The notes below the pieces were generated by a model, which ran no database searches, was not told where the DNA came from, and worked only from the letters and a program-made list of their open reading frames with translations. The position numbers were made by a program, and so were the translations under genes. A stretch of 64,000 nt of DNA from Oceanospirillaceae bacterium (GTDB lineage Bacteria > Pseudomonadota > Gammaproteobacteria > Pseudomonadales > Oceanobacteraceae). Shown here piece after piece: positions 39,351-64,000 of the stretch. Positions within the stretch are counted from its first letter, which is position 1. Each line of letters begins with the position of its first letter. The stretch is from positions 25,692-89,691 of the forward strand of contig PBNY01000093.1 of assembly GCA_002723385.1 (NCBI GenBank), given 5' to 3'.

Positions 39351-39361
39351 GGAGGTGCCCG

Positions 39362-40840: not shown

Positions 40841-40869
40841 CCATCAACGGAAAAACTGACAGGTGTTTG

Positions 40870-41073: not shown

Positions 41074-41100
41074 CTGTAAGGTCTGAACTGTGTTGACTCA

Positions 41101-41130: not shown

Positions 41131-41325
41131 GAGGCTGTTATATGAGCTAGGAGCTTGCCTCCCTCTCCTGGTAAAACCCAGCTACTTAGACATAAAAATA
41201 ACCTTTAAAATCAATAACTTGAATTTTTTTTGAAATTTTCCAGCCATTCTCCTAGCTGATCACAGATCTGTACTGAAATATTGTGATTCCACCCAATCAC
41301 GGGTTTATTCAAAGGAGATTTCTTT

Positions 41326-41454: not shown

Positions 41455-41504
41455 TTCAAGCACTGTGATATCGGCTCATTTTATGGGTCGATATCAAGGA
41501 AATC

Positions 41505-41711
41505 ATGATGAAAAAATTATCTGCCAACAAAGATATCGACAAGTTTGTTCGAAAGCTATTACGCTCTGGCTGGTCATTAGTACGCACAAAGCGCCACCCT
41601 GTAATCAAAGCTCCATGCGGGAAGCGAATCGCTGTGCCTTCAAGTCCTGGTGTAGCTAGGGCATATGATGAATTCACTCACGCCTTACAACGGCTCCAAA
41701 CTCAAGGATGA
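41505..41711 (+). CDS. HicA-like toxin-family protein
   Basis: The 68-residue basic protein contains LLRSGWSLVRTKRHPVIKAPCGKRIAVPSSP, which resembles the dsRNA-binding-fold core of HicA mRNA interferases (GW...H...G..VP), with His32 as the candidate catalytic residue. No HicB antitoxin follows; instead the stop overlaps the ankyrin gene (ATGA). AAGGA lies six bases before the ATG. Function as a toxin is inferred from family resemblance only. Confidence 0.6.
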   Translation: MMKKLSANKDIDKFVRKLLRSGWSLVRTKRHPVIKAPCGKRIAVPSSPGVARAYDEFTHALQRLQTQG

Positions 41712-43894: not shown

Positions 43895-44058
43895 AGTTTC
43901 AAGACAATCATTTCGAATAAGAAAGTACTAACCTCCCTCTAGCTTTTATTATTATTTGACACCGAAAGGGGGAATAAATCAGCATCATGCTCATGAAAAA
44001 TCTGAAAGTGGTGACGTGAGTGCCCCCTTTTTAACAAAGGCCTAAAAAACCACAGGCA

Positions 44059-44730
44059 CTAAACCAATCGAATTCGACTCGACTCCCACTTCCTCAACAC
44101 CGCTTCCAGAAACCACCTTGGCTGTTCGCGGTTAATAGCCGCCTCGTCGAGAATCAGGGTTTGAGCATCCATCTCGCCCAAAAAAGTCAGCTTACGCGAA
44201 TTATCAAAGAAATAGGCGCGGTCGCAGTGTTCCAGCATGCCCCGAAGGTTTGTGAGTGATCGCGCATAGCGGCCCCGGATTTTATCTTCCGGTACATCAT
44301 GCCCGCCCATATCAACTCGCTGCGCCACCCGGCTCACGTTCAGATCGGCGGCGTTCGTACAAACGAAATACAGAGACGTACGAAACCCTTTTTGTCTGGC
44401 GCTGCGGACAAATTCAATGTGACCCGCATGACTCATCACGGATTCGTACGTGAAGGGACGCCCGCAATCAACCCAGTCTTGCCTCAGACCCATCGCAATC
44501 TGTTGCGCCAGTTTGCTGCGTTGATCATTCTCCTGAGCTGGTGTGCACGAGGCGTTCAGGCTTTGTAGATCCAGATGGATATGTTTGGCAATGTCATCAG
44601 GGTTCAGATATTGGCCCAGACTGATCGTCGGGTGTTCTTGCATCAGATAATTGGCAAGCGTGGTTTTGCCCGATCCGTTGGGGCCCGCGATCAAGCGAAG
44701 GCGGGGCTTTTCTTCTCTCTGCTGGTTCAT
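44059..44730 (-). CDS. Zeta-toxin-like P-loop kinase
   Basis: The 223-residue protein has a P-loop AGPNGSGKTT (15-24), a NPDDIAKHI segment and FTYESVMSHAGHIEFVRSARQKGFRTSLYFVCT, the layout of zeta/PezT-type kinases. Known members phosphorylate UDP-N-acetylglucosamine and poison wall synthesis; others have unknown targets. Its start overlaps the stop of the small gene upstream (ATGA), the classical antitoxin-toxin arrangement. Confidence 0.8.
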   Translation of the reverse strand: MNQQREEKPRLRLIAGPNGSGKTTLANYLMQEHPTISLGQYLNPDDIAKHIHLDLQSLNASCTPAQENDQRSKLAQQIAMGLRQDWVDCGRPFTYESVMSHAGHIEFVRSARQKGFRTSLYFVCTNAADLNVSRVAQRVDMGGHDVPEDKIRGRYARSLTNLRGMLEHCDRAYFFDNSRKLTFLGEMDAQTLILDEAAINREQPRWFLEAVLRKWESSRIRLV

Positions 44731-44966
44731 AAGCTGAGTTCATCCCTCAATGTGAACGTCTCCGACGTCTCCAGCTGTTTGACGACGTCTTCTGTTCCAT
44801 CCGGGTTGCATTTCACCAATTCAGTCCCTCGTATATAGGTATAAGCAACCGAGGCTTTCTCAGCTCGTGATATTTCTGTCCTGGAAGCGCGATACGCATC
44901 ATTGTGAAAGACTTTTGCTTCGCCTGAGAATTTTCGGCGATCTGCTCTACTGGTTTTGGAAGCCAT
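44727..44966 (-). CDS. Putative antitoxin partner of zeta-like kinase
   Basis: The 79-residue protein starts with a basic helix (SKTSRADRRKFSGEAKVFHNDAYRASRTEISRAEKASVAY) and ends in an acidic strand region. AGGAGA lies eight bases before the ATG. The four-base overlap with the kinase gene suggests a toxin-antitoxin pair. I do not recognise the family. Confidence 0.6.
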   Translation of the reverse strand: MASKTSRADRRKFSGEAKVFHNDAYRASRTEISRAEKASVAYTYIRGTELVKCNPDGTEDVVKQLETSETFTLRDELSL

Positions 44967-45147
44967 GCATCACTCTCCTGACTGAATCGGCGGGACTGTT
45001 CATTGTACGATCAAGCAGCTTCAGGAATCGAATCCAGGGCTGGTTTTTAGGGCCTGCAGCTTTGCCCCGTTGCCTTCTATCGGATACAGGAAAATCTCAT
45101 TTTTACGCCAAGCATCGCTTCTGGATCCGTTGCCGTTGCCTTCTGCT

Positions 45148-47055
45148 CTACGGAGCGGTTCCCTTATCAATTCTAAGTGGTACAGAGATCGCGTGAGACG
45201 CCATTTCAGTTACAGGCAGTGAAATACTAGAATCATTAAGTGCCCAGCTTGCATATTTTTTATTTAGTTTTCTATAATTCAATCGAGCCGAGAAAGTTAT
45301 TGGAGACCTAGCCCAAAATGGTATTTCTACATTATATGAAAACGACTCGCTTTTACCTGACTTAACAACCCTATTATAGACATTGCCAACCTGGCGAAAC
45401 AAGTCGTGCTTCCAAACAATATCCCCAAATTTATCAATAGGCTTTGAAGCTAAAAAGTGAGAATCCTCGTCAACATACCCATTAATTATCTTTCCAGACG
45501 AAAAAAACTCTTTCCCAGATCCATCGATAGCAACAAATTCAATCCAAACTTCATTTATATCTGTCGTTCCTCCTGGAAAGTTATGACCAACAAGGTTGTT
45601 TGAAACAAGAACTGAAATATCTATAGTTTTACCTGCATATACTATACTTTTATTCCTAGCATAGATTTTAGAGTCATCGTTCAGTTGAATTATTTCCTCC
45701 TGATCATCAAAAAAGCGTGGTTCTTGTATCCTAAGCCCCACCACATTGGACATTAAGAACTTTTTAGACAACCTTAATTGGTTTAGATCCTGATTTAAAA
45801 ATGGTAAGGCTGTATTAGCCCCTAAAAACCGATGTGACGTACGCTTCTTTCTATCCTCTATATTAATCATATGACAATCCACACAACTCTTACTTTCTAG
45901 TGTAGAGTGACTTGCCAAATTTTTTCCGGAAAATGGGCTTTCAAGCCAAGCAGAATACTCATCTTGCATTTTGAACCAAGTCCAATTATTTATTTTCTCA
46001 TCCATAAATTGAACATGACACGATGAACACAATTCAGGCTGATCCAAGATATCCTTCCGCATTTTCATTTTATGAACATCAGGATAAAAATATATTAATA
46101 AATAATATAATTTCTTTAAAAGTTTCGAATCCACCTGCGAAAACAAATAGGTTTTCGAGGCATCCAACTCGTAATTAGCCATTCCCTGAGTGCCATTAAT
46201 TTTAGATATTCCATGACAAGACATACAACTTACACCCTGGTTGTGGCTCACACTACCTTTAGTGCCACCATGAAATCCGTCACTCCCTAGTTGACCAGAT
46301 AATAATGCAATAGGGGAATGGCATCCCTCACAATATCGAGCTGCGGGAATACCATGATCGCGCACAAGTAGATCGATATTTTTAATGTAGAAAGGGTCAC
46401 TTGAGGCTTGGCTGTGAACAGAGCTTTCCCATTCCAAGAACTCTTCATAATGACAGAGGCCACATTCATTAGAGTTACCAATAACTTCTTCGGGTACAAA
46501 CCTGTTATTGACGGTCGTTGTTAAGCTTGGCAAGAAAGGACTTTCGCCATAGGGATATGAGTATTCAGACACATCGCCATATTCAAAAAAAACAAGACTA
46601 TTCTCTTCATCCAAAACAAGAAGGACAGCTAGAAACAAAAACACCAAGACTACATATGTGGCCAAAATACCGCTTTCAAAACAAGGTTCAAATTCAACTT
46701 CACGAGTTTCAGTGAAGCAATAAAAAGAAATAACCACCAAGAAACAGAAAATAAAAGAATGTATGGATACCAAATATTCTAACCAGCCTCCCTGCCAGCC
46801 AAAACCATATAAAAACCAAACCACAACATATATTAAAAAAAGAATTCTTCTAAGGATGGAATTCACTCTAATAAAACCACCTGTCCCCGAAAACAATACA
46901 ATCAAATAGAGAAACAACAAGCCAAAAAATGAAAAAACATATACTAACCCAATCCCTTGAGCAAAAAAAAGCTCCCCAGGCAACAAATAAACCACTATTC
47001 CAGAAAAAAAACACAAATTCAAAACGTAGTTAAAAGCCACATAAAATATATTCAT
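45148..47055 (-). CDS. Membrane-anchored pentaheme cytochrome c
   Basis: The 635-residue protein has about five hydrophobic helices in the first 150 residues, then five CxxCH heme-binding motifs at 198-202, 242-246, 277-281, 343-347 and 391-395 (CGLCH, CEGCH, CMSCH, CSSCH, CVDCH). The remaining C-terminus is a beta-rich domain with no heme. The HYEEFLEWESSVHSQA and EYSAWLESPFSG segments resemble the cytochrome c554/multiheme family. It should be exported and electron-active at the cell surface or in the periplasm. It starts directly after the FG-GAP gene stop (TAAATG), so the operon is tightly coupled. The redox partner is unknown. Confidence 0.85.
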   Translation of the reverse strand: MNIFYVAFNYVLNLCFFSGIVVYLLPGELFFAQGIGLVYVFSFFGLLFLYLIVLFSGTGGFIRVNSILRRILFLIYVVVWFLYGFGWQGGWLEYLVSIHSFIFCFLVVISFYCFTETREVEFEPCFESGILATYVVLVFLFLAVLLVLDEENSLVFFEYGDVSEYSYPYGESPFLPSLTTTVNNRFVPEEVIGNSNECGLCHYEEFLEWESSVHSQASSDPFYIKNIDLLVRDHGIPAARYCEGCHSPIALLSGQLGSDGFHGGTKGSVSHNQGVSCMSCHGISKINGTQGMANYELDASKTYLFSQVDSKLLKKLYYLLIYFYPDVHKMKMRKDILDQPELCSSCHVQFMDEKINNWTWFKMQDEYSAWLESPFSGKNLASHSTLESKSCVDCHMINIEDRKKRTSHRFLGANTALPFLNQDLNQLRLSKKFLMSNVVGLRIQEPRFFDDQEEIIQLNDDSKIYARNKSIVYAGKTIDISVLVSNNLVGHNFPGGTTDINEVWIEFVAIDGSGKEFFSSGKIINGYVDEDSHFLASKPIDKFGDIVWKHDLFRQVGNVYNRVVKSGKSESFSYNVEIPFWARSPITFSARLNYRKLNKKYASWALNDSSISLPVTEMASHAISVPLRIDKGTAP

Positions 47056-50000
47056 TTAAAACAAGCCTTCATTGTTCACCTTAATAAAAGCTGAAAGATA
47101 TTTCTTCTTATCGTCATCGGAAACAGATAGCAGAATATTAAAAAACTCCCTATTCAGATCGATACACTTGCTCAAGTTATACAGAAATAGATCTATTTCT
47201 TCACGATCTACAGACTCATACAAACTTACTAGATCCATCTTCTCAAGATTCGTACCACAGACACCAAAGTACCAAGATGTTGAGAATTTATGATACCCTG
47301 ATTCGCTCATAAATTTCTTAAGTTCAAGGAAATCCTGAACATCGTAATATCTAACGACATTAATCCAAAAATCTTCTGTTAAAGTTTGAAAACCTTTCTT
47401 ATCAACATATTCACGTATAGCTTCATGTGAGAAAACAACAAATTTCGACAGGCATGCAATTTCTTCAGGTGAAAACCCAGTAATATCCGAGAAATCTTCC
47501 GAATTCAACTTATCAACATCAACATCAACATATTTACAATATTTTAAAAAATCCTCATTCGAAAGAACACTTATACTTTCATATAACTCCTGATATAATA
47601 AAGAAGATTGAATATCACTAACATATGACAAGACCTTATATTCGTTACTATATAAAACCTCAGACAATATAGTATGCGCTTCGGAAGAAACAACAGATCC
47701 GGCTGGAATCATCTTCGAAATATTTTTGAGCATCACTTCTGGCGATGCATTTAGGACTCCTAACAAAGTCTTTTTTTTAGATGGATCAATATATCCCCAA
47801 AATGGCATAATAGAGGAGTATATACGCCAAAAACCAGAATTTGAATATTCGACTGACGAAAACTTAATGATGAATCCACCATCACTCTTAAGCTCCACTG
47901 AATTAATTAACAAATCAACTACATCGTAAAGAAAAGAATAATTTACTTGAAATCCAAACTTGCTTACATTGTTAAAATAACCGGCTATTCCATAGCTATC
48001 ATCCAAACTAACCTCATCGTTATTTACTAGATTTCCAACTAGCAGAATATTATAATATGGATAATACAGAGCATCCGAGGACTCATACTTAGATTTTATA
48101 TAAACAGTCGATATTTTATTATCTGTTTCAATCAAAGCATTTAAAAAACATCTCTTAGAATCCATAGAATCTGTACTTTCTATAAATTCTAGAATCTTGC
48201 TCTCAATTAATCCCTCAGTTACGATCATAGCTTCTTCCTGAATCAGTATTTTTTGAATACCAACAGCTCCTTTACAAACCACATTTGTGTTTTCTTTCCA
48301 CTTTTCCAGAGCTGCGATCAAAAAATAGCCGGAAATTTCATATTCCGTTTCAAAAATCCATTCCAGGGCAGAAACAACGTCGCGTTCAGAGTCCGACTTT
48401 AATAGAGTCGATATGATAGGAAGCATAGATTCCGACTTGATATTCATCAAAATTCTAAAAATAAAATAGTCAAAATAATTGGAATTGGTTTTGGCAGCAC
48501 TAATAATACTTTTTAAGTCAGATTGACCATTTAGAAAAGAATTCACCGATTCCAAAATATCATCTCCGTTTAAAAAATAGTCATCCCCCTCTTTGTTTTC
48601 CATAATTTCTTTTGAAAAAACATCTATATCAATATCATTTAAAGCACCATTTTTTGAACCAAACACTTTTAATTCTTCGAGCGATTCCTTTTTTATTAGT
48701 GGAATATTATTTCTACAGTCACTTTGACCAAAAATAGAAAAATACCCCCAAGGATGTATTTCCAACTTTCTTTGACTTGACTTGACTTGAAAATATTCAA
48801 TATCTTTCGGACAATCCAAGGTCAGCCATTCTTCAGGGTCAGTAGTATTTACATAGAAAGCCCCAAAACCATTATTTGAGGTAGACAATAAATCCCAATC
48901 CCCATCATTGTCGGCATCCAAGCTAACTACACTTCTATGAGATTGATACTCATCCCATCCTCTTAAGTCAAAGCTATCAAATTTATACATTTCGAAATCA
49001 GCAGCTTGGTAAAATCTAAGCGGCTGGCCAACCGAATGTAAAGCCGACTCAGGCAGATTACTTTTTGATCCATTTGAAACTACTATATCGGTAGATCCGT
49101 CCGAGTTAAAATCTTTAGCCACTGAGGACCATGCTTGAAGAGCGTAGTCATTTAACTCATTTAAACCCGACGAAACTCCAACATCCGTAAAACCTTCAGT
49201 ACCTCTAATCAATAACTTTCGCGCGCTATGCATATTGCTACCAACGAAGTAGTCTATTCTCCCATCTAGATTTGCATCTAGTGCAGAAACAGTAGAAGCA
49301 TTTTTGAGGCCATTAAGATCAGAATTAGGATCTATTTTGAACTGTCCCGATTGATTCCTTAACAGCAATGAATGATCAGGTGGCAAGTTGATAACTAACA
49401 AATCCAAATAGCCATCAGAATCATAGTCTCCAGATATTGCGCCAATACTCCTAGTAGATACACTTTCAACAAGTGCTGTATTAGATTTCTTGGCGAAATA
49501 CCCCCCCCCCTGATTGATCAATACGACATCCTTATCCGGCCTATATAAAGTCAAGTCTTCATCAATATTATTGGGTCTAAATGCTGCTTCACTTTCAAAT
49601 ACCTTCTCTCCTTTTTTGAAACCAGAAACTCGAGAGACATACAAATCCATCAGTCCATCCATGTTAAAATCAAATATGGTTGCCCCGACAGACCAACCTT
49701 CTGTTCCATCTACAAATCTAACGTCAAATTCTGCATCACCGTTATTAATATAAAGTTGATCCAGACCATCGTTACTGATATATATATCATTATCACCGTC
49801 ATTATCGAAGTCATATATCGTACAGTTAGTTCCATTAGAGCCTTTGATCCCACCAGAAGCTGTCTTATTAAGAAAGTACGGATGATTTCTAATTTGCGTT
49901 ATATTTAAATACAACTGATGAGTATTCCCTTTAAGCCACCAAGATGGTTTTCCATATAGTCTCCCGGAGCCATTTCCATTAACAAAGAAAACATCGACCA

Positions 50001-50196
50001 GTCCATCAGAGTTCAAATCTGACACACACACACCGGCTCCGTACATATCTTTTGCCGAACTTATGTACCTCGACTTGGAGTTATGAAAAAAATACAAACC
50101 TGACTCCAAAGTATATTCTTTAAAGATAGACACATTTGACTTAACATCAGGACATAAAAATATAAAGCACAACGGTAACAGTAGTCTAATACTCAT
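47056..50196 (-). CDS. FG-GAP/VCBS-repeat exported protein with G10 tract
   Basis: The 1,046-residue protein has a signal peptide (MSIRLLLPLCFIFLCPDVKS) and at least six FG-GAP-type calcium-binding repeats in the first 450 residues, each with DxNxDGxxD loops (DLNSDGLVD, DFDNDGDND, DFNMDGLMD, DYDSDGYLD, DANLDGRID, DFNSDGSTD, DADNDGDWD). The C-terminal half is helical and unassigned. Codons 229-231 lie in a run of ten G on the coding strand (GGGYF), a likely slippage site. AT-rich codon use differs from the nif region. Ligand-binding or adhesion functions are typical of such propellers. Confidence 0.8.
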   Translation of the reverse strand: MSIRLLLPLCFIFLCPDVKSNVSIFKEYTLESGLYFFHNSKSRYISSAKDMYGAGVCVSDLNSDGLVDVFFVNGNGSGRLYGKPSWWLKGNTHQLYLNITQIRNHPYFLNKTASGGIKGSNGTNCTIYDFDNDGDNDIYISNDGLDQLYINNGDAEFDVRFVDGTEGWSVGATIFDFNMDGLMDLYVSRVSGFKKGEKVFESEAAFRPNNIDEDLTLYRPDKDVVLINQGGGYFAKKSNTALVESVSTRSIGAISGDYDSDGYLDLLVINLPPDHSLLLRNQSGQFKIDPNSDLNGLKNASTVSALDANLDGRIDYFVGSNMHSARKLLIRGTEGFTDVGVSSGLNELNDYALQAWSSVAKDFNSDGSTDIVVSNGSKSNLPESALHSVGQPLRFYQAADFEMYKFDSFDLRGWDEYQSHRSVVSLDADNDGDWDLLSTSNNGFGAFYVNTTDPEEWLTLDCPKDIEYFQVKSSQRKLEIHPWGYFSIFGQSDCRNNIPLIKKESLEELKVFGSKNGALNDIDIDVFSKEIMENKEGDDYFLNGDDILESVNSFLNGQSDLKSIISAAKTNSNYFDYFIFRILMNIKSESMLPIISTLLKSDSERDVVSALEWIFETEYEISGYFLIAALEKWKENTNVVCKGAVGIQKILIQEEAMIVTEGLIESKILEFIESTDSMDSKRCFLNALIETDNKISTVYIKSKYESSDALYYPYYNILLVGNLVNNDEVSLDDSYGIAGYFNNVSKFGFQVNYSFLYDVVDLLINSVELKSDGGFIIKFSSVEYSNSGFWRIYSSIMPFWGYIDPSKKKTLLGVLNASPEVMLKNISKMIPAGSVVSSEAHTILSEVLYSNEYKVLSYVSDIQSSLLYQELYESISVLSNEDFLKYCKYVDVDVDKLNSEDFSDITGFSPEEIACLSKFVVFSHEAIREYVDKKGFQTLTEDFWINVVRYYDVQDFLELKKFMSESGYHKFSTSWYFGVCGTNLEKMDLVSLYESVDREEIDLFLYNLSKCIDLNREFFNILLSVSDDDKKKYLSAFIKVNNEGLF

Positions 50197-50215
50197 AATG
50201 AGGACACGACCATAT

Positions 50216-50548
50216 CTATTTTTCTAATAAAATTATCTTCCCTGCAGCCTGGTCATATTCAGCCAACAAAGCTCCCAATTCTTCCTTAATCGCTTCTCTA
50301 CTCTCCCCATCTTCAATCTTAGACAAAGAAGCTTTCAATACTTTTATTTTAGTCACTTTATCTTTCAGGTTGAATTCACTGTTAGAATAAAATTCTTTGT
50401 TCTCATCTATTGCAAGTCCAACTGATCCATCACTAATTTCATTTTTAATCCGGTTGGATATATTTTTCTCTTCTATTCCATCCCCAGAAAATCTAATTAT
50501 TAGAACAAAAGTAATAGCAACAGCCCCAAAAATCAGATATTTAAACAT
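50216..50548 (-). CDS. Small membrane-anchored coiled-coil protein
   Basis: The 110-residue protein has one N-terminal membrane helix (MFKYLIFGAVAITFVLIIRF) and a charged helical remainder (KVTKIKVLKASLSKIEDGESREAIKEELGALLAEYDQAAGKIILLEK). Its start overlaps the stop of the giant Ig-like gene by eight bases. No family is recognised. It may act as an assembly or anchoring factor within the surface operon. Confidence 0.65.
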   Translation of the reverse strand: MFKYLIFGAVAITFVLIIRFSGDGIEEKNISNRIKNEISDGSVGLAIDENKEFYSNSEFNLKDKVTKIKVLKASLSKIEDGESREAIKEELGALLAEYDQAAGKIILLEK

Positions 50549-53500
50549 TGGATTCCCTCAGTAAACTATCCAAAAAATCTTTAACCAATTGATCAAATTG
50601 CAAAAATACAACTTCAATCCAACTTGAAGTTGTAAAAGACATAGAAAAACTATCAACCTGATCATTACCTGCCAGATCTTTCATCCCACTTACCGCCAAA
50701 CGGTAATCGCTTTCTGGCAATAACAGGGTAGTTGGACGAATGACGACGTTACTGCCTGAGATATCAATTTCTATTGATTGCTCAACACCCGAAGCATCCA
50801 CCAGTTGAATACCGCTCTGCTCCCACTTTCTCAATGGCTCATCAAACGTGACACGCAACACCGCATTCAATGGCACGTTCTCGCTGCCTTCTGAGATGCT
50901 GCTGGACATCACCGCTGGGCCGGTCACATCTTCTTCATAAGCAGTCGTAACTGATCGGCTTGCGCTACTGATAGCGTTACCACTCAGATCCCTCAGGTTA
51001 TAACCGTAATAGCTGTAGCTTCTGCCCGCCAACAGAACGTCCGCTGGAATAATTTCGATCCGACGTCCGTCTTCCAACAAACGGATGTCTGTGGGAACCC
51101 TGTTATTGGTTTGATTATCCCGGAGATAAATGCCACTGCTGGTAACGCTGATCGGGTCAATTGGCTCACTGGCTTCCCAGGCCAGGATTGGATTACGAGG
51201 GATGGTACCTGTTACCAAGGCTGTCAGGCTTCCTCCGTTGAAGTCGGGACCCGATCCCGTGGTGAAGCTTACACTCCCTCCTGCGACTTCATTGCCCGCC
51301 AAATCCATACCGGATGGTACAGGTTCTGTTACCTCACTTTCCGCGATCAAAACGCCTCGTCGCTCATAACGCATTACCTGGTTATCTTCACTGAACCTCA
51401 GGTTATTCAAGTCCGGGTTGCTCACTTCCAGGCTCAGAGGACTCATGCTTTCATCAAAACGCACCGCGTAAGCCGCCAGAGTACCAACCTCTCGGGCACC
51501 CTCTGTCGGACTCATGGAGACCATCGCCGGTGAACGGTCATCCGCCTCGAGATAGTCCCCCGTTGTGAAGTCTATGCGAGTGGAGTAAGACGTATCAGCA
51601 TCTGTGTCCACTACATCATCCAGGTACAGGTAATACTCACTGTTCGCTGACAGCAGCCCATCCGGCTCGACGATCAGTACCCGACTGTTGCCATCCAGGC
51701 GTGAGCTGATGTCCATTTCATTGCCATCGCTGTCTTTGAGGGAAATCGTGCTGCTATCCAGTGTGCTATCGTCCAGTTCTTCTGAATACAAAACAGCCAA
51801 TAAGGGGTTTAACGGTACATTGTCTTGATTATATGCAATCGAGTAGACCAATGGATAAGGGCGGGTGCCTATTCCTTCACTGAGCGATTCGGTATAGAAG
51901 TAGCTGTTGTAATCTTCGTAATGCCCGGCCAAATCCCGTACATCATTGAGATACACTTCAATATAGGCACCTTCCGGTAATGTGGCATCTGCTATAAATT
52001 CAATGGTGCGCTGGTCATCTCTCACGGTCACCGTTCCGTTGACTTCAACGCCATCCGCCAGGATACGTAACCCAGCTTCCACCGTGTCCACTCGTACCGC
52101 CTCGTCCATCACCAACAATATGCTGTCAACATCCGCCTCTCGACTGCTTCTTGATGGAATTTGAACACTAACTGATGGACCACTGCGGTCGACACTGCTT
52201 GCTTCTCCCGTGATAAAGCTGTGGAACGTCTCTTCCAGCAAGTTGCCCGATAAATCACGCAAACCCTTTCTCAATACAACGCTGACGATGCTATGCGCTG
52301 GCAAGTTGGCATCCAGTACCACTTCTCGACCGTCTGTGGAGCGACTGACACTTGGGCTGATGATCTCACCGTTGCTATAAAACATCAGATATTGGTTAGT
52401 CAGATAGGTCGAGCTCATCGGCTCACTAAAGCTCAGATGCACTTCCGTGCCCGGATCAATATTGACGCTGCCCGCTGCGGGCGACATGGCCAGCAGCGTG
52501 GGCGCTTCCGTATCTTCTACGGTCTCTGTGGTGAAGCGAACATCGACATAACGTCTATTACCCGCCAGGTCTTCAACATACTCCGATCCATAATAGAACA
52601 GTCCGCCGAGCATGGGTTCTGTCAACGTAAAGGTGGCGACGTTGCCCTCCAAATGCCATTCACCCGATAAGGGGAGACTAGTGGAATTGGTGTAGGCTGA
52701 TGGAATTGGCAAGGTACTGAGATCCACCGGTTCATTGAACGTCAGGACAATCTCGCTGGCCGCTACGGAAACGTCTTCCTGATAATGCTCCGGCGTCATG
52801 GATATCAAACTTGGCGCTGTCGTGTCGAATACGCTGCTGTTCGACGTGGTGAACTGGACAACATTATCCGAATCAATCACTAGCGCATTGCCTGCGTAGT
52901 CACAAACATCCAGCTGTAATTGGTACTCCGTGCTGACCGCCAAGTCGGACTCAGCCGTTAAAGTCAGTGTTTGGCGATCGTTACTCAGTTCATCCAGTGT
53001 CAAAGGAATGGTGTCATTCTCTGACACCAGACTGGCACTGCCAAAACAGTCTCCACCAATCGGTTCATTCAATGTGACAACCCATTGGGCATTAACCGGT
53101 ACGTCGCTTGCTCCTGGCGAGACACTGCTGAATATCAACTGTGGAGCCGCCTCATCCTGGCTATTGCCTGTTGTGAAAGAGGTGTAACCACCGTAGAAAT
53201 TGTTACCCGCCAGATCCCAGAGATACGCGGATGAATAGGAGCTATTGCCCGCTCCCAAACGATAAACGTGCCCAGCTTGCAACGGTTCTGCAAGTTCAAA
53301 GGTAACGGACAAGCCGTCTTCACTCAGTACTGGAGTTCCATCAAGGTATCGATTAAGAGTGTCGTCATAGAGTTGCATGGCACCGGCTCGAACCGAGACA
53401 GGGTCCAATCGTTCACTGACGGTCAGCGACAAGCGGGTATTGAGTGGAACGTTTTCGGCTCCGGAATCTATCGACCAACTGCGGATCTTACCTCTTACGA

Positions 53501-56500
53501 GATCATTTGTTCTGCCAATCTTGAAGTTGATAGTACTAGTTTCTTCTATTTTATTACCACTTAGGTCCTCAATATTCCCAATATTTAATGTATAAGACTT
53601 ATCTGCCTGATAACCATCAACTGGCGAAATTGAAACAGCTGACCTTTTATTATCTATTGACTTATAACTATCAATATTATTTCCAGCCTCGTCGAGTAAA
53701 ACAAATTGATCCAGGCCTAATACATTAATAGCTTCATCAAAACGGATAGATAATTTTGCATTTAGCGGTATTTCTTCCTGATCATTTAAAAAACTTACCC
53801 CCAAGATATTAGGTGCTGTTCCATCAGCATCAAATGAAGTTGTAAAGTAAGAATAAAAACTGGAGCCCATTTTATTTCTGAAAGAATCTTTAACTGAACC
53901 ACTAATGGATATTTTATGCCGCCGGCCCAATTTTAATGGCTGAGCAGGGATCAATGATACAATCGTTTTATTGTCATCCAAAACAACAAAAACGCTAATC
54001 GTATCCCCAGTAACCGTATCCTGTACCTGAATGTTACTTTCATTAATAGACTCGGCATACATGGGCTCCGAAAACTCTATCGTGATCTGAGAGTTGATGG
54101 GAACAAGGTCGGAGTTATTTCCGGGCGAGTAAGTCACCACTGAAGGAAGCTCAGTATCCAAGCTATCACCAGTAGTGAAGCTAAATATCACTTCATCTAT
54201 TTCATTACCTGCATCATCTTTAAGACCACGAACAATCACAGTATGCAAGCTCGTATCTGTCATTAAATCAACAGGAGAAACCGTTACAGATGTACGATCA
54301 GAGGATAAGGAAACACTGACATCACGCTGCTGTCCATTACTGGCATCGCCCTCGTAGAGAATTATATTACTAGAGGATATCGATGAACGACGTAATGGTT
54401 CTGTAAATTCAATAGTTAGTTGACTATTTTCTGGGATATCAGTAGCAGTATCTTCAGGCCAGTTAAGAAAAACTTCAGGGGCCGTAATATCCGGGTTATT
54501 GGGGTCTGTATCGTTGTTTAACTCCGTTAAGTCATCTATTCCATCTCCGTCAGAGTCGTCTTGGAGAGGAGAGATTCCCAAACGTACTTCCAAGCCATCA
54601 GGTATTCCGTCCTTATCTGTATCGTAATTTTCAGGGTTCGTTGTGTATCGGGTAATTTCTTCTTCATTACCCAAACCATCTCCATCGGTATCTTGTTCTA
54701 CGGCTAATTCCACCTCAACTTCGGAACTGTTGCCTCCTGCGTCATTGGCAATAACTTTCAATATTGAAGTTGCTTCACTACTATTACTCGTCAGGAAAGC
54801 TTGATATGGCGAAACCGTATCCACAACCTTTTGTACACCATCTAGCCAGAACTCTACAGAAGCAACCGTCAAATCATCTGATGCCGACACAGCAACCAGC
54901 TTTGGCACATCCATTACAAAAACGTCGAAGTTAGTTGGCTTGGTTAGCTCAATTGTCGGTTGTATTTGATTTCCATCTGTATTTTGCTGAAATTGAGCAA
55001 TTACAAGTAATGCATTACCTGACTTCCCATACCTGGCAGATATAGAAGCATCCCTAATCTGATAAATGTAATGTGAGTCCACCGATACAGCACGAGATGT
55101 CCTTCCGGAAGAGTCAACATCAGATATATCGATTAAGGTTGTCGAATCAACGTTCTCTTTAGAAAGCATCAAAATAGAGTTCTGAAACCTCTGATCGGAA
55201 GAGAAATAATAGGGAGACTGGCTATTTATTGCCTGATTGGGAAAATAATCTACCGAAGAATTTAATACCTGAGGAGAAACAGGGTTTTCAAGGTCGTAAA
55301 GAAGATATCCACTGGATGATCTTGATATAAAGAGCCTCGTCCCGTCTAACAAGACGTCTCTAATATTATTAGAAGCGATACTAGTTACCCATACAGGCGA
55401 ACGAAGTGAAGACACATCTATTATTCGAGCAGCATTGTCGGTGGCTACAACAGCCAAATCATCTGAGACCGATATACTACCTACCTGGCCGAGTCCCTCC
55501 AGTGTGGAAAATTCTGTCGGCTTATCTGGCTTTACGACATCCAGTATTCGTAAACCTGCATCCTGGCAGGCGAGAAACACGAACTCATCATTGACCTCAA
55601 TATCACGGACAATATCACCCGGATTATATTCCCCGTATAACTCTGGTGTATTTGGATTCGAGATATCCAAAATACTCAATCCGTTCTGCGTATCCGACAA
55701 ATAGATACGGTCACCCGATATTTTCACAGAAATGGCCGTACCGTACGTTTGATAGTTGGCTAATATAATTGGTTCTTCCTTGTTACTAATATCAACCAGG
55801 ACCAATCCCGAATCACCGGCAGCCACTGCTGCGATATTACCTTGAACATCAATGGCGTTAGCGAAGCCAGGCAAAGCAAGTGTCGCAACACCCACAGGTG
55901 TAAACTGTTCCACAGTGACAGGAACATCCACGAATTCGTCACCTAACGTCACCTGAATACTGGTTTCACCCGACGAAACAGCAGAAACAAGCCCCTCGGA
56001 ATCCGCGTTTGCTATGGTCGCAGCTGAGGATTCATACAGGGTGCCAAATCTGGAAGGTGTCACATCCAATCTAGAACCATCACTCAACAACGCTGTAACC
56101 TGAATTTGAAGATTTGACTCGGTAGAGAGATTACCAAGATTCAATGAAACCGAGTCAGGAAAGACTGAGAGAGCGACAAGGGCACGAGTATAGTTGACAT
56201 CACTGGCATTTATCGGTGACGTTTCCAACGACACTTCCAAACCATCATTGATGCCATCGCCGTCGGAATCCGCCAAGAGAGGATTCGTAACGAAGCCATC
56301 GCCTCCGGGAATCATTTCCTCTCCATCCTGAATACCATCGCCATCGGAATCGGGATTATTTGGGTCTGTACCTAATTCATATTCATCCAATGAACTGAGG
56401 CCATCGCCATCCTGGTCTTCCCTGGCATCCACTGGGTCGTTCGGATTCAGCCCCAGAGTTATTTCAACATCGTCCGGGATTCCATCGCCATCTGAATCCC

Positions 56501-57086
56501 CTCCCCCGGCCACTTCAACCCGGATAATCGCTACCACTCCGTCCTTGCGCACGGTGACCATAGCGGTGCCAGACGAGACTGATTGCATCCAACCGTTCGC
56601 ATCAACCGTTACGATAGCCGGATTACTGGAGATAAAGTTAGTGCCATCAACCGCGTCCGAAGCATCTCGACTGGTTCCAGAAGCAAACTGTGCCAATACC
56701 TTGAGTCGCCGGCGCTGAGCTGTGGTATCAAATATGACTGGTTGGCTGTTCAGAATTTTGAGGCTTTGCGGCACTTCAGCTGCTTCACTCAGATAAAACT
56801 GACCAACCTCAGTTTGCTGGCCAGTTTGCACTTCAAAGTAATCCGATTGACCAACCAGAGTCTTACCATCGCGAATACAAGTTGCCTGGGCGCGCACACG
56901 CCCCATAAAGGACGGGATATTGGTTAATTCAAAACTGCCATTATCACGAGCTTGAACCGAGCGATTAAGAATAGTGATTGTGCAGGTGGAATCCACCAGC
57001 AATGTGGATTCCGCAGCATATACAGTGCTACTGCCTCCACACAATGCTAATAACAGAACACAGATATAATTAATTAACCTGAACAT
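50541..57086 (-). CDS. Giant Ig-like (Big_5) surface protein
   Basis: The 2,181-residue protein begins with a signal peptide (MFRLINYICVLLLALCGG), then a carboxypeptidase-regulatory-like region, a Big_2-type domain, thrombospondin type-3 calcium repeats (DSDGDGIPDD, DQDGDGLSSL and others near residues 200-290), LVIVD-type beta-propeller repeats (about 400-680), more calcium repeats, and a long run of about eleven SbsA/Big_5-like Ig domains with the recurring PVNAxxxVxF(N/D)EPL pattern. No catalytic site is evident. The start at 57086 has AAGG eight bases upstream and lies one base after the RHS gene stop. A structural, adhesive or matrix role is likely. Confidence 0.82.
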   Translation of the reverse strand: MFRLINYICVLLLALCGGSSTVYAAESTLLVDSTCTITILNRSVQARDNGSFELTNIPSFMGRVRAQATCIRDGKTLVGQSDYFEVQTGQQTEVGQFYLSEAAEVPQSLKILNSQPVIFDTTAQRRRLKVLAQFASGTSRDASDAVDGTNFISSNPAIVTVDANGWMQSVSSGTAMVTVRKDGVVAIIRVEVAGGGDSDGDGIPDDVEITLGLNPNDPVDAREDQDGDGLSSLDEYELGTDPNNPDSDGDGIQDGEEMIPGGDGFVTNPLLADSDGDGINDGLEVSLETSPINASDVNYTRALVALSVFPDSVSLNLGNLSTESNLQIQVTALLSDGSRLDVTPSRFGTLYESSAATIANADSEGLVSAVSSGETSIQVTLGDEFVDVPVTVEQFTPVGVATLALPGFANAIDVQGNIAAVAAGDSGLVLVDISNKEEPIILANYQTYGTAISVKISGDRIYLSDTQNGLSILDISNPNTPELYGEYNPGDIVRDIEVNDEFVFLACQDAGLRILDVVKPDKPTEFSTLEGLGQVGSISVSDDLAVVATDNAARIIDVSSLRSPVWVTSIASNNIRDVLLDGTRLFISRSSSGYLLYDLENPVSPQVLNSSVDYFPNQAINSQSPYYFSSDQRFQNSILMLSKENVDSTTLIDISDVDSSGRTSRAVSVDSHYIYQIRDASISARYGKSGNALLVIAQFQQNTDGNQIQPTIELTKPTNFDVFVMDVPKLVAVSASDDLTVASVEFWLDGVQKVVDTVSPYQAFLTSNSSEATSILKVIANDAGGNSSEVEVELAVEQDTDGDGLGNEEEITRYTTNPENYDTDKDGIPDGLEVRLGISPLQDDSDGDGIDDLTELNNDTDPNNPDITAPEVFLNWPEDTATDIPENSQLTIEFTEPLRRSSISSSNIILYEGDASNGQQRDVSVSLSSDRTSVTVSPVDLMTDTSLHTVIVRGLKDDAGNEIDEVIFSFTTGDSLDTELPSVVTYSPGNNSDLVPINSQITIEFSEPMYAESINESNIQVQDTVTGDTISVFVVLDDNKTIVSLIPAQPLKLGRRHKISISGSVKDSFRNKMGSSFYSYFTTSFDADGTAPNILGVSFLNDQEEIPLNAKLSIRFDEAINVLGLDQFVLLDEAGNNIDSYKSIDNKRSAVSISPVDGYQADKSYTLNIGNIEDLSGNKIEETSTINFKIGRTNDLVRGKIRSWSIDSGAENVPLNTRLSLTVSERLDPVSVRAGAMQLYDDTLNRYLDGTPVLSEDGLSVTFELAEPLQAGHVYRLGAGNSSYSSAYLWDLAGNNFYGGYTSFTTGNSQDEAAPQLIFSSVSPGASDVPVNAQWVVTLNEPIGGDCFGSASLVSENDTIPLTLDELSNDRQTLTLTAESDLAVSTEYQLQLDVCDYAGNALVIDSDNVVQFTTSNSSVFDTTAPSLISMTPEHYQEDVSVAASEIVLTFNEPVDLSTLPIPSAYTNSTSLPLSGEWHLEGNVATFTLTEPMLGGLFYYGSEYVEDLAGNRRYVDVRFTTETVEDTEAPTLLAMSPAAGSVNIDPGTEVHLSFSEPMSSTYLTNQYLMFYSNGEIISPSVSRSTDGREVVLDANLPAHSIVSVVLRKGLRDLSGNLLEETFHSFITGEASSVDRSGPSVSVQIPSRSSREADVDSILLVMDEAVRVDTVEAGLRILADGVEVNGTVTVRDDQRTIEFIADATLPEGAYIEVYLNDVRDLAGHYEDYNSYFYTESLSEGIGTRPYPLVYSIAYNQDNVPLNPLLAVLYSEELDDSTLDSSTISLKDSDGNEMDISSRLDGNSRVLIVEPDGLLSANSEYYLYLDDVVDTDADTSYSTRIDFTTGDYLEADDRSPAMVSMSPTEGAREVGTLAAYAVRFDESMSPLSLEVSNPDLNNLRFSEDNQVMRYERRGVLIAESEVTEPVPSGMDLAGNEVAGGSVSFTTGSGPDFNGGSLTALVTGTIPRNPILAWEASEPIDPISVTSSGIYLRDNQTNNRVPTDIRLLEDGRRIEIIPADVLLAGRSYSYYGYNLRDLSGNAISSASRSVTTAYEEDVTGPAVMSSSISEGSENVPLNAVLRVTFDEPLRKWEQSGIQLVDASGVEQSIEIDISGSNVVIRPTTLLLPESDYRLAVSGMKDLAGNDQVDSFSMSFTTSSWIEVVFLQFDQLVKDFLDSLLRESNV

Positions 57087-57087
57087 A

Positions 57088-60000
57088 TCAATTACCTTGG
57101 AAGAATCTTTTCCCAGAATCAAAGGCAAGTTTAAGTAATGGCCACTGATCCTCCAGTAGGCCACCTCCTACTCCATTCGCAAGGCCACCCAATACATTAT
57201 CTTTGAACTTTTCTTTATTACACGGGTCGGCAAAGTCCCCACGGGGGATAAGCAGCTCAGACATTGCAGCGACCGTACCTCCCACACTGCTTTGAATAAC
57301 AGCATTGGATAGCCTTCGGCTTACTGGGCCGGCCCCTGCTATAACTGCAGCTTTCCCAATCGGGCTAAAACCAACGGCACTCATCACAGCGGCCTCTGCA
57401 GCTTCACGTAAAACATCCTTAGCATCAATAGCAGATACATCGCCCCCATTGTCCTGATACTGTTTAACCGCTTCTGTCATTCCGGCCAAAAGAGCATTCG
57501 CTCCTATATATAAACAATGAGGACATAACCCATAAGGATCTACTCGATTCACAGGTTGATTATTCACATATCCATATAGACCGAGGCCACCAGCGAGACC
57601 TAATGAATCAACTTGGGAGTATCGACCTACAGCTGAATCATAAATCCGAGTGTAATTGTATATCCCCCCATATTTATTAACATATTGTCCGGGCATCCTT
57701 ACCCGATAATCGATCCCATTAGAATCGCCAACACCAAACGCATCTGATGCAAACTCCCAGGCCGGCTTTTTATCAGAGTCATATAGTACTCTTGGCATCC
57801 CTATTTGATCTGAAAACGCATAGTAGACATCAACACCATTATCACTACTGACGATATAGGCCAATGGCGTCCAGCCCATATATATATGCCAACGCTGCTC
57901 TATCAAAACGCCTGAGACATCTAACCAGGTTTCACTCACCATGCGACCTACTTGATCGAAGTGGAAAACGATGAATCCATCTGCTGTTTGAGTAATACGC
58001 CGTTGGCCATTAGCGTGGTAAAAATACTTCGGGCCACTATCCACCATTGCCAGACGATTTCTCGCATTATATGTGTACGAATGAGAGCCATCTGTTAGCG
58101 TGTTACCATTGTCATCGTAGGTTCTGGAATATCCCCCAACACTCATTAACTGGTTGCTATCGTCACTGTATTGATATGCTTCTTCAGTAACATGAGTGCC
58201 TTGTTTCGTTATCTTTGCCGTTCGATTCCCCAGAGGGTCATAGGTGTATTCAATAGATTGCTCGAAAAGCCGCTCTGTCACTAACCGATTCGCCGCATCG
58301 TACTCATAGTGGCGATTGAGATTTTCGCCACTGTAGTCTCTTATTTCGACAAGGTTTCCAGCTCCATCGTACTGATAATGAGCCTCTTGCTCATCGCCGA
58401 GCAGCTGGCTAGTAAGCCGGTAATTCTTATCGTAGTTTCGGCTGAGTTCCATTCCATTACCCATCACCATAGAATTTATTGGGCCATGAGGTAAATAGTT
58501 GATATCTGATATTAAAGGCAGGGCCGAACCGGACTGTTCCGATTCGGAAGGAGGCGTGATAGATATTCCAGACACCTGCCCCATTTGATCTCTTTTCCAA
58601 TGAACGATCAGATCGCCAGGATAGTGCACCTGTACTACCCGATTATTATCGTCATACTCATAGCCAATCTTTTGGCTGTAGGTGAGCCCATCTATGGTAA
58701 TTGCATGCTTGTCTTCCAAAAGGTTACCATTAAAATCATAACGATAATAACTATTCCCAGTTTCATCCTGCACTCGGGTCAGTCTGCCTTTACCATAGTT
58801 ATCAAAAGCCGGTGATGCGTCATTTTTACTAAAGGCGTCAAACTCGTATTTGATATTCAGATCGGGGCTATCTGGGTAGCTTGAGGCTATTAAACGATTG
58901 ACAGCATCATACTGATAATGGGTGACAACGGATCTTGCATCCGTCATTTTAATTACGTTACTTGCATTATCGTATTCATAAGTTGTAATACCACTGTCAG
59001 GGCTTATTCTTTTTATAACCTCACCAAATATGTTGTATTCATATTGCGTAGTTAGACTGCGCTGGTCACTAACAGTTTTCACCTGACCAGCTTCATCATA
59101 GGTCAAACGAGCTGTTTCATTTAGTGCGTTGGTAGTACTTATCAGTCGATTTAATGAATCAAAGCCAACGGACGTATTATTACCCGCACCATCGTTTGAG
59201 AGAATTTGATTACCAGCCTTGTCGTATCCATAATATTTGGCATAGCCATTATCACCTAACATCTCTATAACACGACCAAGTTCATCGTAAATTGAAACAC
59301 GTTCATAGGTGATATTTCCGCCTGCATCTTTTATCTGTTGCTGAGTAACATTACCCATACTATCTAGAAGATATTCCGTTCTGCGTCCAAGGCTGTCTTC
59401 CTGAGCTACCAGCCTTTGGGCTTGATCGTACTCAAAATTAATTATTTGGCCTCCTGGTTGCCGTAGCTCTTTTACTTGTCCAGACAGGTTGTAAAGAATT
59501 TCTGTAATCTGAGATGCGGTAGTGACTTTGGTTAGCCAGCCACGATCGTTGTATTCGAGAACGGTCTCAATTCCATTGTGATCAATCAAACGTCTTGGTT
59601 GCCGGAAAGCGTTGTAATCCTGGAATTGAGTTATTAACCCAACGGCATTTGTTTGGGACAATAGATTTGAATTTGAATCGTAGCTAAAGGTTGATACGTC
59701 TGAAATATCTGTTCTTGGACCATCAACGGATAATAGCAACCCTTGTTCGCTATAGTCGTATGTTGTCTGCCTGCCTCCTCTATTGAGGGAGGTAACTCTT
59801 CCTGAGGCATCATATTCGTAACTAATTACTAACCCATTTGCGAGAGTAACACTCTCTATCAGTGCCTTTGATTCTTGCCAGGTCCATTCAGTAGTGCGTT
59901 CTGCTTGAGTACCAGATGCCTCGACCATTTTCGTTTTCAAGCCACGGTCGTTGTACTCGTACCTTGTAGTGGAGCCATTCCAGTCAGTGTGGCTTGCCAG

Positions 60001-63000
60001 AGTTCCATCATCAAAGTAGGTATACATTTGGTTGGCCGCCAAACAATAAGCTGATGAATGGCCCTCAACATTTTTAATACGCTTTTGCCCTGCAACCTCA
60101 ATAAAGTTATAGGTAGTCTCTTTACCCAAAGGGTTTCGGACGGTGACAGTTTCATCAGCGTTGTAGATCACGCGGTAGCTGTCTGTTCCATTTGCATGCT
60201 CTGTCAAAATTCCTCGACCACGATTATCGTACTGGTAAGTCGCAAAACGGTTTCCGTTTTCGTCGGTGATTCCAGTTAATGCAGTCGGAAAACGTTCGTC
60301 TTCGTAGTGGTAAATCTTTTGACTTTGATCGGGGTAGGTAACGGAGGTGATTACCTTCGGTGAGTCACTCCATTGGTAAGTAAAGAGCAGGTCATCTATT
60401 TCAAATTTGGTGACGTCACCCAATTCATCTCGTGTGACTTGGGCTGAATTCCCCAATCCATCTTCAATGATAGTAATAGAGCCGGAATGACTGAAGCTTT
60501 GTGTATAACCATCTACATTTCCTATTTTTATTATTTGACCCGACTCATTGAAGAGCTGAAATTCTCCATCAGGAAATTCCAGCCTGTATCCTGAACCATC
60601 ACGTACCTCGGCTTCTACCAAGGTAACAAGGGGATTTATATTGGACCTCCAAGGCTGATCAGGACTATTACAAACCTCTGTTGAGTTAGGGCAACTCTCA
60701 CTGGCGATAAACCGGTAGTCGGTTCCAGAAGAGCTGATTACCTTAATAACATCAGAGATGATCCCCGTCTGTTCAGAGTGTGCATTATAACGAACAAGGG
60801 AATAGCTAAAGGGGTCTCGCCACTTACCATCCGCGCTGTTGTAATAGCGCTCCATTGCAATCGGCAACGGTCCAATCCCAATGAAATCAGTTTCACTCTG
60901 GTACTTGTTACCAGTGGTGAAATCAATCGGGTTACCCGCACAATCATCTGGATTAGGTTTTTTCGCCGGTGCAGGTATTGCATCGCAGTGGTTACCACAA
61001 CTTGCGGTATCGCCACTATCGGCGGGCGGTAGAGGAGCATGCCAACCTGCTTTGACAACACCGACTCCAGTATTGGATTCGATAACACTGCCATCATCCG
61101 ATACGGTTCCAAACCCGATAGAAACAAATTCTTCCAGATCATGATCATAAGAATACATCTCAACCTGGGCGCCAATTTTATGTCCATCGGTATTGGGCAC
61201 CGTCAGAGGAGCTGGAGGATCAAACATAGCTCCCGTGGGTTGAATAGTAACGATTAGCTGAGGCTGAGAGCCATTAGGAGGAAGCATCGGAATTTTGTTG
61301 GCATTGACAGGCGTTACCGATACATAACCCTCCCTTTCTCCCGTTGGAAAGGTAATTGAGTCTTTTTCGATTTCGAGTTTAAAACCGGGGAGTTCGTCCA
61401 AGGTTAATACAACATCTTCCTTGCCGGCATAGACAGCATTCTCGGTATTAACCTTCACCATATATATGGGAGTCGCCAAGGGGTTATTCACCCCGGGAAC
61501 AGTTACAATATTGTACGAAAGAGTCGGATATTCTCCCGCTATCGTGGTAGTTGAACCGTCTGCAATCAAATGCACGGGACCAACTGGCGCTTCTGTTATT
61601 AGAAATTGCCCTTGTTCATCTGTGACTGCTTGTCTTGTGCTCCCTTCAGCGCGGACGGTAACTCCAGGAAGAGGCTGATCCTGATTATTGACAACTGTGC
61701 CAGATATCGACGTTTTTCCTACTTCGCCCGCTACAAATGCTGTCGAGAAGAAGCTTACTTTTCTGGTCGTGGTACCCTCGCCATCAAGCAGATAAGCAGT
61801 TACCTTTTGCCGATCCAAGCCTGTAACTGCACCTAAAATATATTTGACCGACGCTCTGCCATCAGCGTTTGTCATTGTCGTATATCGGTTCGAACCGTCT
61901 GCGAATATACCGCCACCTTCTTCAACGACAAACTGCACCTGAGAATCGGGCACCAAGTTGTGACCTTCATCTGTCACTACAACAATCAAGGGAAGCGGTA
62001 AAGGTTGGAGAACAGCGCCTCTCTGATTATGGCCACTGTTCACGCTGATTTTCGTACCCGGCTTTGCCAGGGCCGATAATCTGAACACTGCCTCACCATC
62101 TATACCAACTGTTTTAGCAGTTACCTGGTGATTGCCTGAACCAGCAGTTGTACCTAAACGATATCGGACTTCTGCTTTACCGTTCGCATCTGTTCTGGCG
62201 ACTAACGCTCTAACAGTTTCGAAACCATCGATTAGCTCTCCATCACCCGCTGTCACTCTAAAACTAACTTCAGTTTCTGCTAATGGAGTACCGTCAGCAT
62301 TTGTTACCCCCACTTCCAAACCGTCGTCCAGTTCCTCTCCGATATATCCGGATTGAAAAAGGCCTGCAAGTTTTTCGATGCTTCCTCCCGATGGCGGCAC
62401 ATACTGCAAATTAATTGTCAGAATCTCTTCGTTACCAACTTCGTCCATGGCAACAAGCGTTATCTCATTGTTACCCTCGAGCAATTCATAGTTGGAGATA
62501 ATGTAACTCCGGTTTCTTATAACACCTTCTATTCCATTAGCCCGGACACTCGCCTTTCCTTCTGATACGGTTCCCTTAACCAAGTCGTTTACAAGCCCCG
62601 TAAGACTGATTACTTTTTCATAAACGACCTGGCCATCCTTGTGTGACTCCAAGGTCAAATGCGGTGGAGTTAAATCCAGACTTACTGCCAAGGTATCCGT
62701 TACCTGCGTTGGTCCCTCAGCCAAGCGCGCTATAACAGTGTTATACCCTTCATCCAAGGTAACAGTGGCCGTAAATGTTCCATTCATCATCGGTTCAACG
62801 CCAATGCCATTGATAGTTAAAGTGGCATGAGGATCACTTACCTGGCCTGCAACAGCTAAATATCTGTTCCCGACGGTTATCTGAGAATCTGGGGAGTTAA
62901 ACCTGACAGACAAATCCGGCTGTTCGATTGGGTCGAATCCATCACAATCTTCATCAACACCGTTATTTGGAATGCTTGTAGCTCCCGGAAATGCTAATGA

Positions 63001-63726
63001 ATTGGAATCATCGCAATCACCGGCTTCCACTGTGAAGCCATCGCGATCAACATCAGAAAAACTGGTATTCGTACCAACCAATCCATCACAGTTTTCATCA
63101 ATGAGGTTTCCAACAACTTCCAAAACGCCAGGGTTGATAGACACATCATTTTCATTGCAATCTCCTTCCGCTGCAGAAAATCCATCGCCATCCAGATCCA
63201 ACAAAGTCGTGTCAATCAGGTCGGAACCATTGCAGTCCTCGTCAATGCCGTTATTCGCGATCTCGGTTTGGCCAGGGAATATGGCGGCGGAGTTGTCGTT
63301 GCAGTCACCAGTTGCAGGCGTGTACCCATCTTCATCGACATCCAACAAAGTCGTGTCAATCAGGTCGGAACCATTGCAGTCCTCGTCAATGCCGTTATTC
63401 GCGATCTCGGTTTGGCCAGGGAATATGGCAGCGGAGTTGTCGTTGCAGTCACCAGTTGCGGGCGTGTATCCATCTTCATCGACATCCAACAAAGTCGCAT
63501 CAATCAGGTCGGAACCATTGCAGTCCTCGTCAATGCCGTTATTCGCGATCTCGGTTTGGCCAGGGAATATGGATTCATCTAAATCATTACAGTCTTCCGT
63601 TATAACAAAACCATCTTGATCCTGATCTGAAATGGTGGGAGAGTCGCTCGAACCTGTCCCCCCACCACCACAACCAGTTGCAATTAAGACGAAGAGCGTA
63701 AAAGAAATAAGAAGTATTGGCTTCAC
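57088..63726 (-). CDS. RHS-repeat lipoprotein with MopE metal-binding repeats
   Basis: The 2,212-residue protein starts at a GTG with GGAAG six bases upstream, giving a lipoprotein signal [19 protein letters not shown]. About five MopE-type motifs follow (DxDxDGxxxxxGDCxDxxxxxxPGxxExxxxGxDEDC), then Ig-like domains. Next come a DUF6531-type region ([24 protein letters not shown]) and about 30 YD/RHS repeats. The RHS core motif is near residues 2070-2100 ([38 protein letters not shown]). The last 115 residues are the variable tip, with no recognised toxin motif. It is probably surface-exposed, and may shed or present its tip. Confidence 0.85.
63211..63640 (-). repeat. 144-base tandem repeats encoding MopE motifs
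   Basis: Three consecutive copies spaced exactly 144 bases apart (48 codons; anchors at 63211, 63355 and 63499) are nearly identical in DNA, much closer than the other MopE motifs of the same gene. The repeat unit is recent and copy number could vary by recombination. Confidence 0.85.
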
Positions 63727-63800
63727 TGCTAACTTCCGTGTTACTTGATGTGTACAAAAGAGTACCAGAACTGAAGTCAACAATTTCCGCCATTTTGATA

Positions 63801-63984
63801 TTAATTACACATAACAACCAGATCAATTATAATTTTTATATCTACTCCCAATATCCAGCGTCGCAACGTAGATTTTCCAACATCCAGCGACTTGCACGCG
63901 TCAGAAACAGAATATTCGTAATCAAGCACCAAGCTGGCTGGTTCGAGTTTGAACTCGGGAAAAGGAACGACGTTGTCTTTTCAT
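63801..63984 (-). pseudogene. IS3-family orfA transposase remnant, frameshifted
   Basis: Minus-strand translation from ATG at 63984 begins MKRQRRSFS and, after a frame change, continues EFKLEPASLVLDYEYSVSDACKSLDVGKSTLRRW, the HTH of IS3-group OrfA. A base is gained or lost just after the RRSFS codons, so the frame is broken. The similarity fades after RRW, and the sequence runs into the RHS gene's upstream region. The rest of the element is not visible; the right window end cuts off any 5' flank. Confidence 0.75.
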
Positions 63985-64000
63985 TGAACACCTCTCTGGC

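Follow-up and report, generated by a model that had tools for sequence, protein, structure and literature searches.

A 64,000-nucleotide stretch of DNA from an Oceanospirillaceae bacterium (GenBank assembly GCA_002723385.1, contig PBNY01000093.1, positions 25,692 to 89,691; hereafter the window) carries, at 45148-63726 of its minus strand, five genes for a pentaheme cytochrome c, an FG-GAP beta-propeller protein, a small protein and two giant modular proteins, one with immunoglobulin-like (Ig) domains and one with an RHS tail. We tentatively regard them as a variant of a recurring, apparently unnamed cluster, in which the cytochrome and the propeller protein would likely form a periplasmic electron-transfer unit predicted to serve giant modular surface proteins. 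The pairing of cytochrome and propeller, a conserved core in the giant protein and heme-b-type histidines in the relatives are established; the c552-like and CRTAC1-like folds are predicted. Four of the five genes have relatives that cluster repeatedly in other bacteria, which is more than chance.

Recurrence of the cluster

An alignment of 35 cytochromes was used to search a species-genome collection and gave 66 loci, 54 of them canonical (at least 280 bits against the window cytochrome) and 12 distant or fragments. An FG-GAP gene adjoins the cytochrome gene in 42 of the 46 canonical loci that include 2.5 kb or more of upstream sequence, the exceptions being L050, L051, L053 and L058. Where at least 8 kb flanks the cytochrome on both sides (29 canonical loci), the propeller is found in 25, the giant core in 20, an Ig-type gene in 10, and one or both giants in 23; these counts are lower bounds because the stretches reach no further than 10 kb from the cytochrome. 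Relatives of all four genes lie within one stretch in 8 loci and also in L102, which has core, Ig, propeller and cytochrome genes on one strand in the order of the window. The same order is apparent in L049 and L037, their core gene being seen only as a cut piece, and in many loci the core gene is directed away from the propeller-cytochrome pair. A first-pass annotation of the window had named co-occurrence in other genomes as a check on its proposed operon, and these loci show it for four of the five genes. What it had described as a set joining a multiheme cytochrome to giant surface-type proteins does recur, while the small protein is an orphan.

Among the records that contain relatives are some titled Alteromonas, Catenovulum, Methylomonas, Methylobacter and SAR324. 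Nine of the loci are in methanotroph records (Methylomonas, Methylobacter or Methylococcaceae: L011, L020, L028, L034, L035, L036, L039, L040, L046), which speaks for the hint at methanotrophs in the first-pass annotation. In records titled Cyclobacteriaceae and Polyangia (L059, L062), a more distant cytochrome gene has an FG-GAP gene behind it in the same orientation.

The pairing was also seen in a set of 276 genomes of the class, own genome included, chosen without regard to the cytochrome. The cytochrome was found in 10 of them (E<=1e-30) and the propeller in nine, all within these 10 (hypergeometric probability 4e-16, or 1e-14 without the own genome). The core is present in five, among them every genome whose cytochrome is canonical and full-length (own, G076 and G255). 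In the remaining seven of the 10, the cytochrome is of a second form, with frames of 905-1025 residues and a tetratricopeptide repeat (TPR) C-terminus in all three scanned. Its gene lies near a propeller gene on one contig in G277, G261 and G056; in G099, a propeller match was not found. TPR-tailed relatives among the loci (L080, L084, L079; L100, L101) make up a second subfamily, and in L100 and L101 the cytochrome gene is followed by a CRTAC1-like gene and then by a TPR protein gene.

The cytochrome and its anchor

CXXCH motifs number exactly five in the window cytochrome (residues 198, 242, 277, 343 and 391), which also has five predicted membrane helices at the N-terminus and a C-terminal Ig-like domain bearing a VGHNFPGG motif. 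Pfam places cytochrome c554 / MtrC-type heme domains on it, and its predicted fold is that of the pentaheme c552 type, the C-terminal Ig-like domain included; no other multiheme cytochrome fold is among the aligned fold matches listed, which excludes nothing. Models of other multiheme families were missed: OmcA/MtrC decaheme (TIGR03507) by 33.1 vs 209.3 bits, with five heme motifs rather than ten, and NrfA nitrite reductase (PF02335) by 21.9 vs 24.1 bits. Of the 7997 candidates scored in the sequence search, 256 were relatives at E<=0.001, and the best of full length reached 39-40% identity; a pattern scan with the window cytochrome alone found none.

Four histidines are conserved in the anchors of the relatives, as in membrane diheme cytochromes b (b561/DUF4405-like). 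The window anchor lacks three of them (in another alignment, all four), a loss unique to it among the complete sequences aligned. It keeps all five CXXCH motifs together with H214, H328, H408, H491 and H550.

Two loci (L007 at 11954-13897, L008 at 11974-13923) have a second cytochrome gene of the family directly behind the first, with a single propeller gene before both; the second copy in L008 keeps all four heme-b-type histidines. The L054 cytochrome (9531-11571; record titled Candidatus Endobugula sertula) has a split frame, whose two pieces, 298 and 389 aa long, overlap.

The propeller protein, the small protein and the giant proteins

The FG-GAP propeller protein has a predicted CRTAC1-type fold. 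The UnbV_ASPIC model matches 19 of 24 aligned members (E<=0.001) and misses the window copy, which is 20-22% identical to 25 others; the all-pairs median of that set is 24%. The small protein is hydrophobic in a single N-terminal stretch and charged in the rest, and matched only itself (22 scored candidates from 5.8 billion sequences). In L011 and L049, the Ig and propeller genes are separated by other small genes, which by eye are unrelated to that of the window.

Both giant proteins are predicted to lie on the cell surface. What is conserved in the RHS-type protein is a core of 669 residues (285-953 of the frame from 63783), which is 39-56% identical in 28 other proteins. N-termini vary from 143 to 970 residues and the tails vary too: among 26 other full-core proteins, 19 fall into one linked class, four are RHS-type (all truncated where the stretch ends) and three are single. 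The core is free of cysteine in 26/26 relatives measured and has one in the window; after the core, 10-52 cysteines follow in the 22 relatives without an RHS tail and few in the RHS tail of the window. MopE-type motifs (PF11617) score 141 bits vs a cut-off of 27 in five stretches of the window protein, and a regular expression finds such motifs in 6/28 other core proteins. The first-pass annotation had listed RHS and MopE elements in the set; both were rejected as defining parts, on the conserved span and varying tails for the former and on the 6/28 count for the latter. The start of the window protein is lipobox-like by eye, and a crude pattern finds a lipobox in 3/28 relatives. In the Ig protein, the first 800-900 residues are conserved across clusters, and the Big_5 repeats vary.

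A small secreted-type protein is encoded just before the core gene in 8/10 loci of ORF (open reading frame) cluster f4 and 4/4 of f7 (for example, L040 11679-12395 and L004 5525-6124). It carries PEP-CTERM in L040 (PF07589) and, by eye, in L004 and L010. PEP-CTERM neighbours were not found in the own genome, and controls gave no signal either, so this result is uninformative.

Gene layout

All five frames are open, and Pfam agrees on their domains (Table 1): nine RHS stretches, five MopE-type motifs, ten Big_5, LVIVD, TSP3 and FG-GAP_3, which together with the CXXCH count match the domains first assigned. The tight packing reported earlier was likewise confirmed, with gaps of 0 bases (cytochrome/FG-GAP), 19 bases (FG-GAP/small) and 1 base (RHS/Ig), and an overlap of 8 bases between the Ig and small genes. 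The earlier ATG start of the Ig protein at 57086 and GTG start of the RHS protein at 63726 stand beside longer frames from a GTG at 57164 and a TTG at 63783.

Table 1. Coding features of the five-gene set in the window.
Feature	Positions	Strand	Basis
Pentaheme cytochrome c, 635 aa	45148..47055	-	ORF, Pfam, fold and helix prediction, CXXCH count
CRTAC1-type FG-GAP beta-propeller protein, helical HEAT-like C-terminal half, 1046 aa	47056..50196	-	ORF, Pfam, fold
Small protein, 110 aa, orphan	50216..50548	-	ORF, sequence search, helix prediction
Giant Ig-like/LVIVD/TSP3 protein, 2181 aa	50541..57086	-	ORF, Pfam
Giant protein: variable N-terminus, 5 MopE-type motifs, conserved core, RHS C-terminus	57088..63726	-	ORF, Pfam

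Promoter-like sites in 44700-64000 were not enriched (29 vs a shuffle mean of 42.3), nor were terminator-like sites (14 vs 13.8). The window ends with the contig, so the view stops just upstream of the RHS gene.

Relation to known systems

Each part is of a known kind; the pairing and the cluster were not found in the open-licence papers searched. This agrees with the earlier statement that no described system of such composition was known, and does not imply absence from print. To our knowledge, the c552 of Thermochromatium tepidum has no propeller or giant partner. Its matched part starts at chain residue 35-41 (PDB 5ZE8) and hence leaves no room for a five-helix anchor.

The window cytochrome weakly matches the NCBIfam equivalog of Geobacter ExtKL (NF040886), far below its cut-off (28.8 vs 250 bits). 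ExtKL, Gsu2801 and the pentaheme proteins of cable bacteria are placed in one family, homologous in structure to c552 as well as to AvECN, an archaeal nanowire protein, in the available part of PMC11976967; that part mentions neither an anchor fusion nor a propeller partner, and the window cytochrome has both. With CRTAC1/ASPIC-UnbV proteins, the window propeller shares the fold and differs by its long helical HEAT-like half and the regular pairing with a cytochrome. The sole parallel found is in PMC12758564, which describes, in the part available, CRTAC1-family genes beside hydrazine-synthase-like genes and next to multiheme cytochrome genes; the cytochromes and organisms are different. MopE and multiheme surface cytochromes occur in one organism, Methylococcus capsulatus, according to the accessible portion of PMC4831470, in which the five-gene cluster is not mentioned. 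With RHS-core proteins the window protein shares the repeats and the associated core, but here the RHS part is one of several exchangeable tails and a toxin domain was not found by Pfam or PADLOC.

Proposed function and alternatives

The set would likely move electrons between the cell membrane and the giant proteins. In the relatives, the simplest reading is that quinol would pass electrons to two b hemes in the anchor and these to five c hemes on the periplasmic side. The propeller/HEAT protein may act as a scaffold at which the target, a giant protein included, would dock; the giant proteins are the other recurrent partner. The window anchor would no longer bind heme b. If the window protein has lost the b step, it either depends on a different carrier for its electrons or is decaying; that carrier may be a soluble periplasmic one, the anchor only holding the protein at the membrane. 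A more specific version, which we consider possible but doubtful, is a membrane redox complex of seven hemes, not described before, in which a single chain would carry two b and five c hemes; it would pair regularly with a propeller of CRTAC1 type and wire or mature giant surface proteins with exchangeable tails, the window being a rewired form with the b hemes dropped and an RHS-tailed partner. A link between the RHS tail and heme-b loss was itself rejected, as RHS-tailed L008 and L023 keep all four histidines.

Several observations weigh against an electron-transfer unit serving the giants. The redox partner, substrate and complex are candidates only. Giants are missing in 6/29 well-flanked loci, four of which also lack a propeller gene, and three of these four (L050, L051, L053) have short cytochrome forms of 370-447 aa. 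In two genomes of the class the core is present but the cytochrome is not (E<=1e-30), and half of the six TPR-type genomes with both proteins (G143, G218, G307) carry the two genes on different contigs. The propeller query was taken from a canonical cluster and thus favours propellers of that type. Distances between the genes correlate (r 0.67-0.84), a value confounded by shared ancestry. Pfam support for the heme-b anchor is weak, with DUF4405 in 7/35 and Ni_hydr_CYTB in 5/35 members (E<=0.01) and both below the cut-off in P0122, and the loss of heme-b ligands could be decay.

An apparatus for extracellular electron transfer, nanowire-like, in which the pentaheme protein exports electrons as proposed for ExtKL and the cable-bacteria family, comes to mind because of the family resemblance: the c552 fold match, the weak match to the ExtKL model and the structural grouping cited above. 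It is nevertheless unlikely, since an outer-membrane barrel was not found among the five genes (Pfam), the ExtKL score is so far below its cut-off, and the cytochrome begins with five predicted membrane helices. For the last reason, the surface position first assigned to the cytochrome is also unlikely. The cysteine-rich tails suggest a maturation system, in which the cytochrome, with a DsbA-type partner at some loci, would set the thiol/disulfide state of the tail. Besides the cysteine-free cores and cysteine-rich tails of the relatives, an ORF cluster with a DsbA-like L040 member, present in four loci, is in its favour. We find this rather improbable, given the cysteine-poor RHS tail of the window, the intact histidines of L008 and L023 and the rarity of DsbA-like genes in the locus set.

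Decay of an island, whose large genes were acquired jointly and now drift in the host, would account for the singular loss of heme-b ligands, the low identity of the propeller, the foreign composition and the mobile-looking neighbours; five intact frames and the retained CXXCH motifs and histidines of the cytochrome speak against it and make it improbable. Still less credible is a toxin locus, contact-dependent or polymorphic, in which the RHS protein is the carrier; the first-pass annotation had considered contact-dependent action. RHS repeats with Rhs_assc_core are matched and the C-terminal tails are exchangeable, and the idea rests on these; however, no toxin domain was found after the RHS core by Pfam or PADLOC (undescribed toxins being beyond their reach and immunity genes not searched for), the gene directly behind is that of the Ig protein, and most relatives have no RHS part. 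Least probable of all is capture of copper or another metal by the putatively metal-binding MopE-type motifs, with the cytochrome tuning the metal redox state: the five motifs and the methanotroph relatives fit, but the motifs are confined to a minority of the core proteins.

Origin and neighbourhood

The host probably belongs to the marine Oceanobacter mangrovi group, because this is the nearest named relative of its RsxC (26114-27592; 80% identity). A full cytochrome ortholog was found in 0/43 other genomes of the same family, two of which have distant partial matches; weak partial propeller matches occur in 4/43. The G+C content at third codon positions (GC3) is 0.27-0.45 in the five genes vs 0.73 in RsxC and 0.78 in the next gene. 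An island-like region at 34327-44730 holds a type IIG restriction-modification gene (PADLOC) and, by eye, AlbA/Schlafen-type, integrase-like and ankyrin-type proteins and a P-loop protein resembling zeta toxins. Because orthologs are scarce in the family, GC3 is low and restriction and integrase-like genes lie nearby, the set was probably acquired by horizontal transfer. At the contig end (63830-64000), a short broken-frame stretch resembles, by eye, the start of an IS3-type transposase orfA. A mosaic origin, with a lower-GC cytochrome half and a higher-GC giant half, was rejected, the GC3 difference of about -0.11 being within the range of 34 other loci (-0.137 to 0.179). Plasmid carriage was likewise rejected: tblastn with relative P0010 matched seven records only in part, at 24.5-27.8% identity, and in none did the match cover 80%. 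Ten neighbours beyond the set, tested as conserved accessory genes, were mostly housekeeping; they include a secretin (L043) and a giant cadherin/propeller protein (L009).

Concluding remarks

Multiheme cytochromes are familiar mainly from metal reducers and bacteria of the nitrogen cycle. The analysis names precise genes and residues for testing. If the proposed function is true, a membrane b/c fusion that recurs, in bacteria that include marine and methane-oxidising ones, with one kind of propeller protein and with giant surface-type proteins would point to a use of periplasmic electrons that has gone unrecognised.
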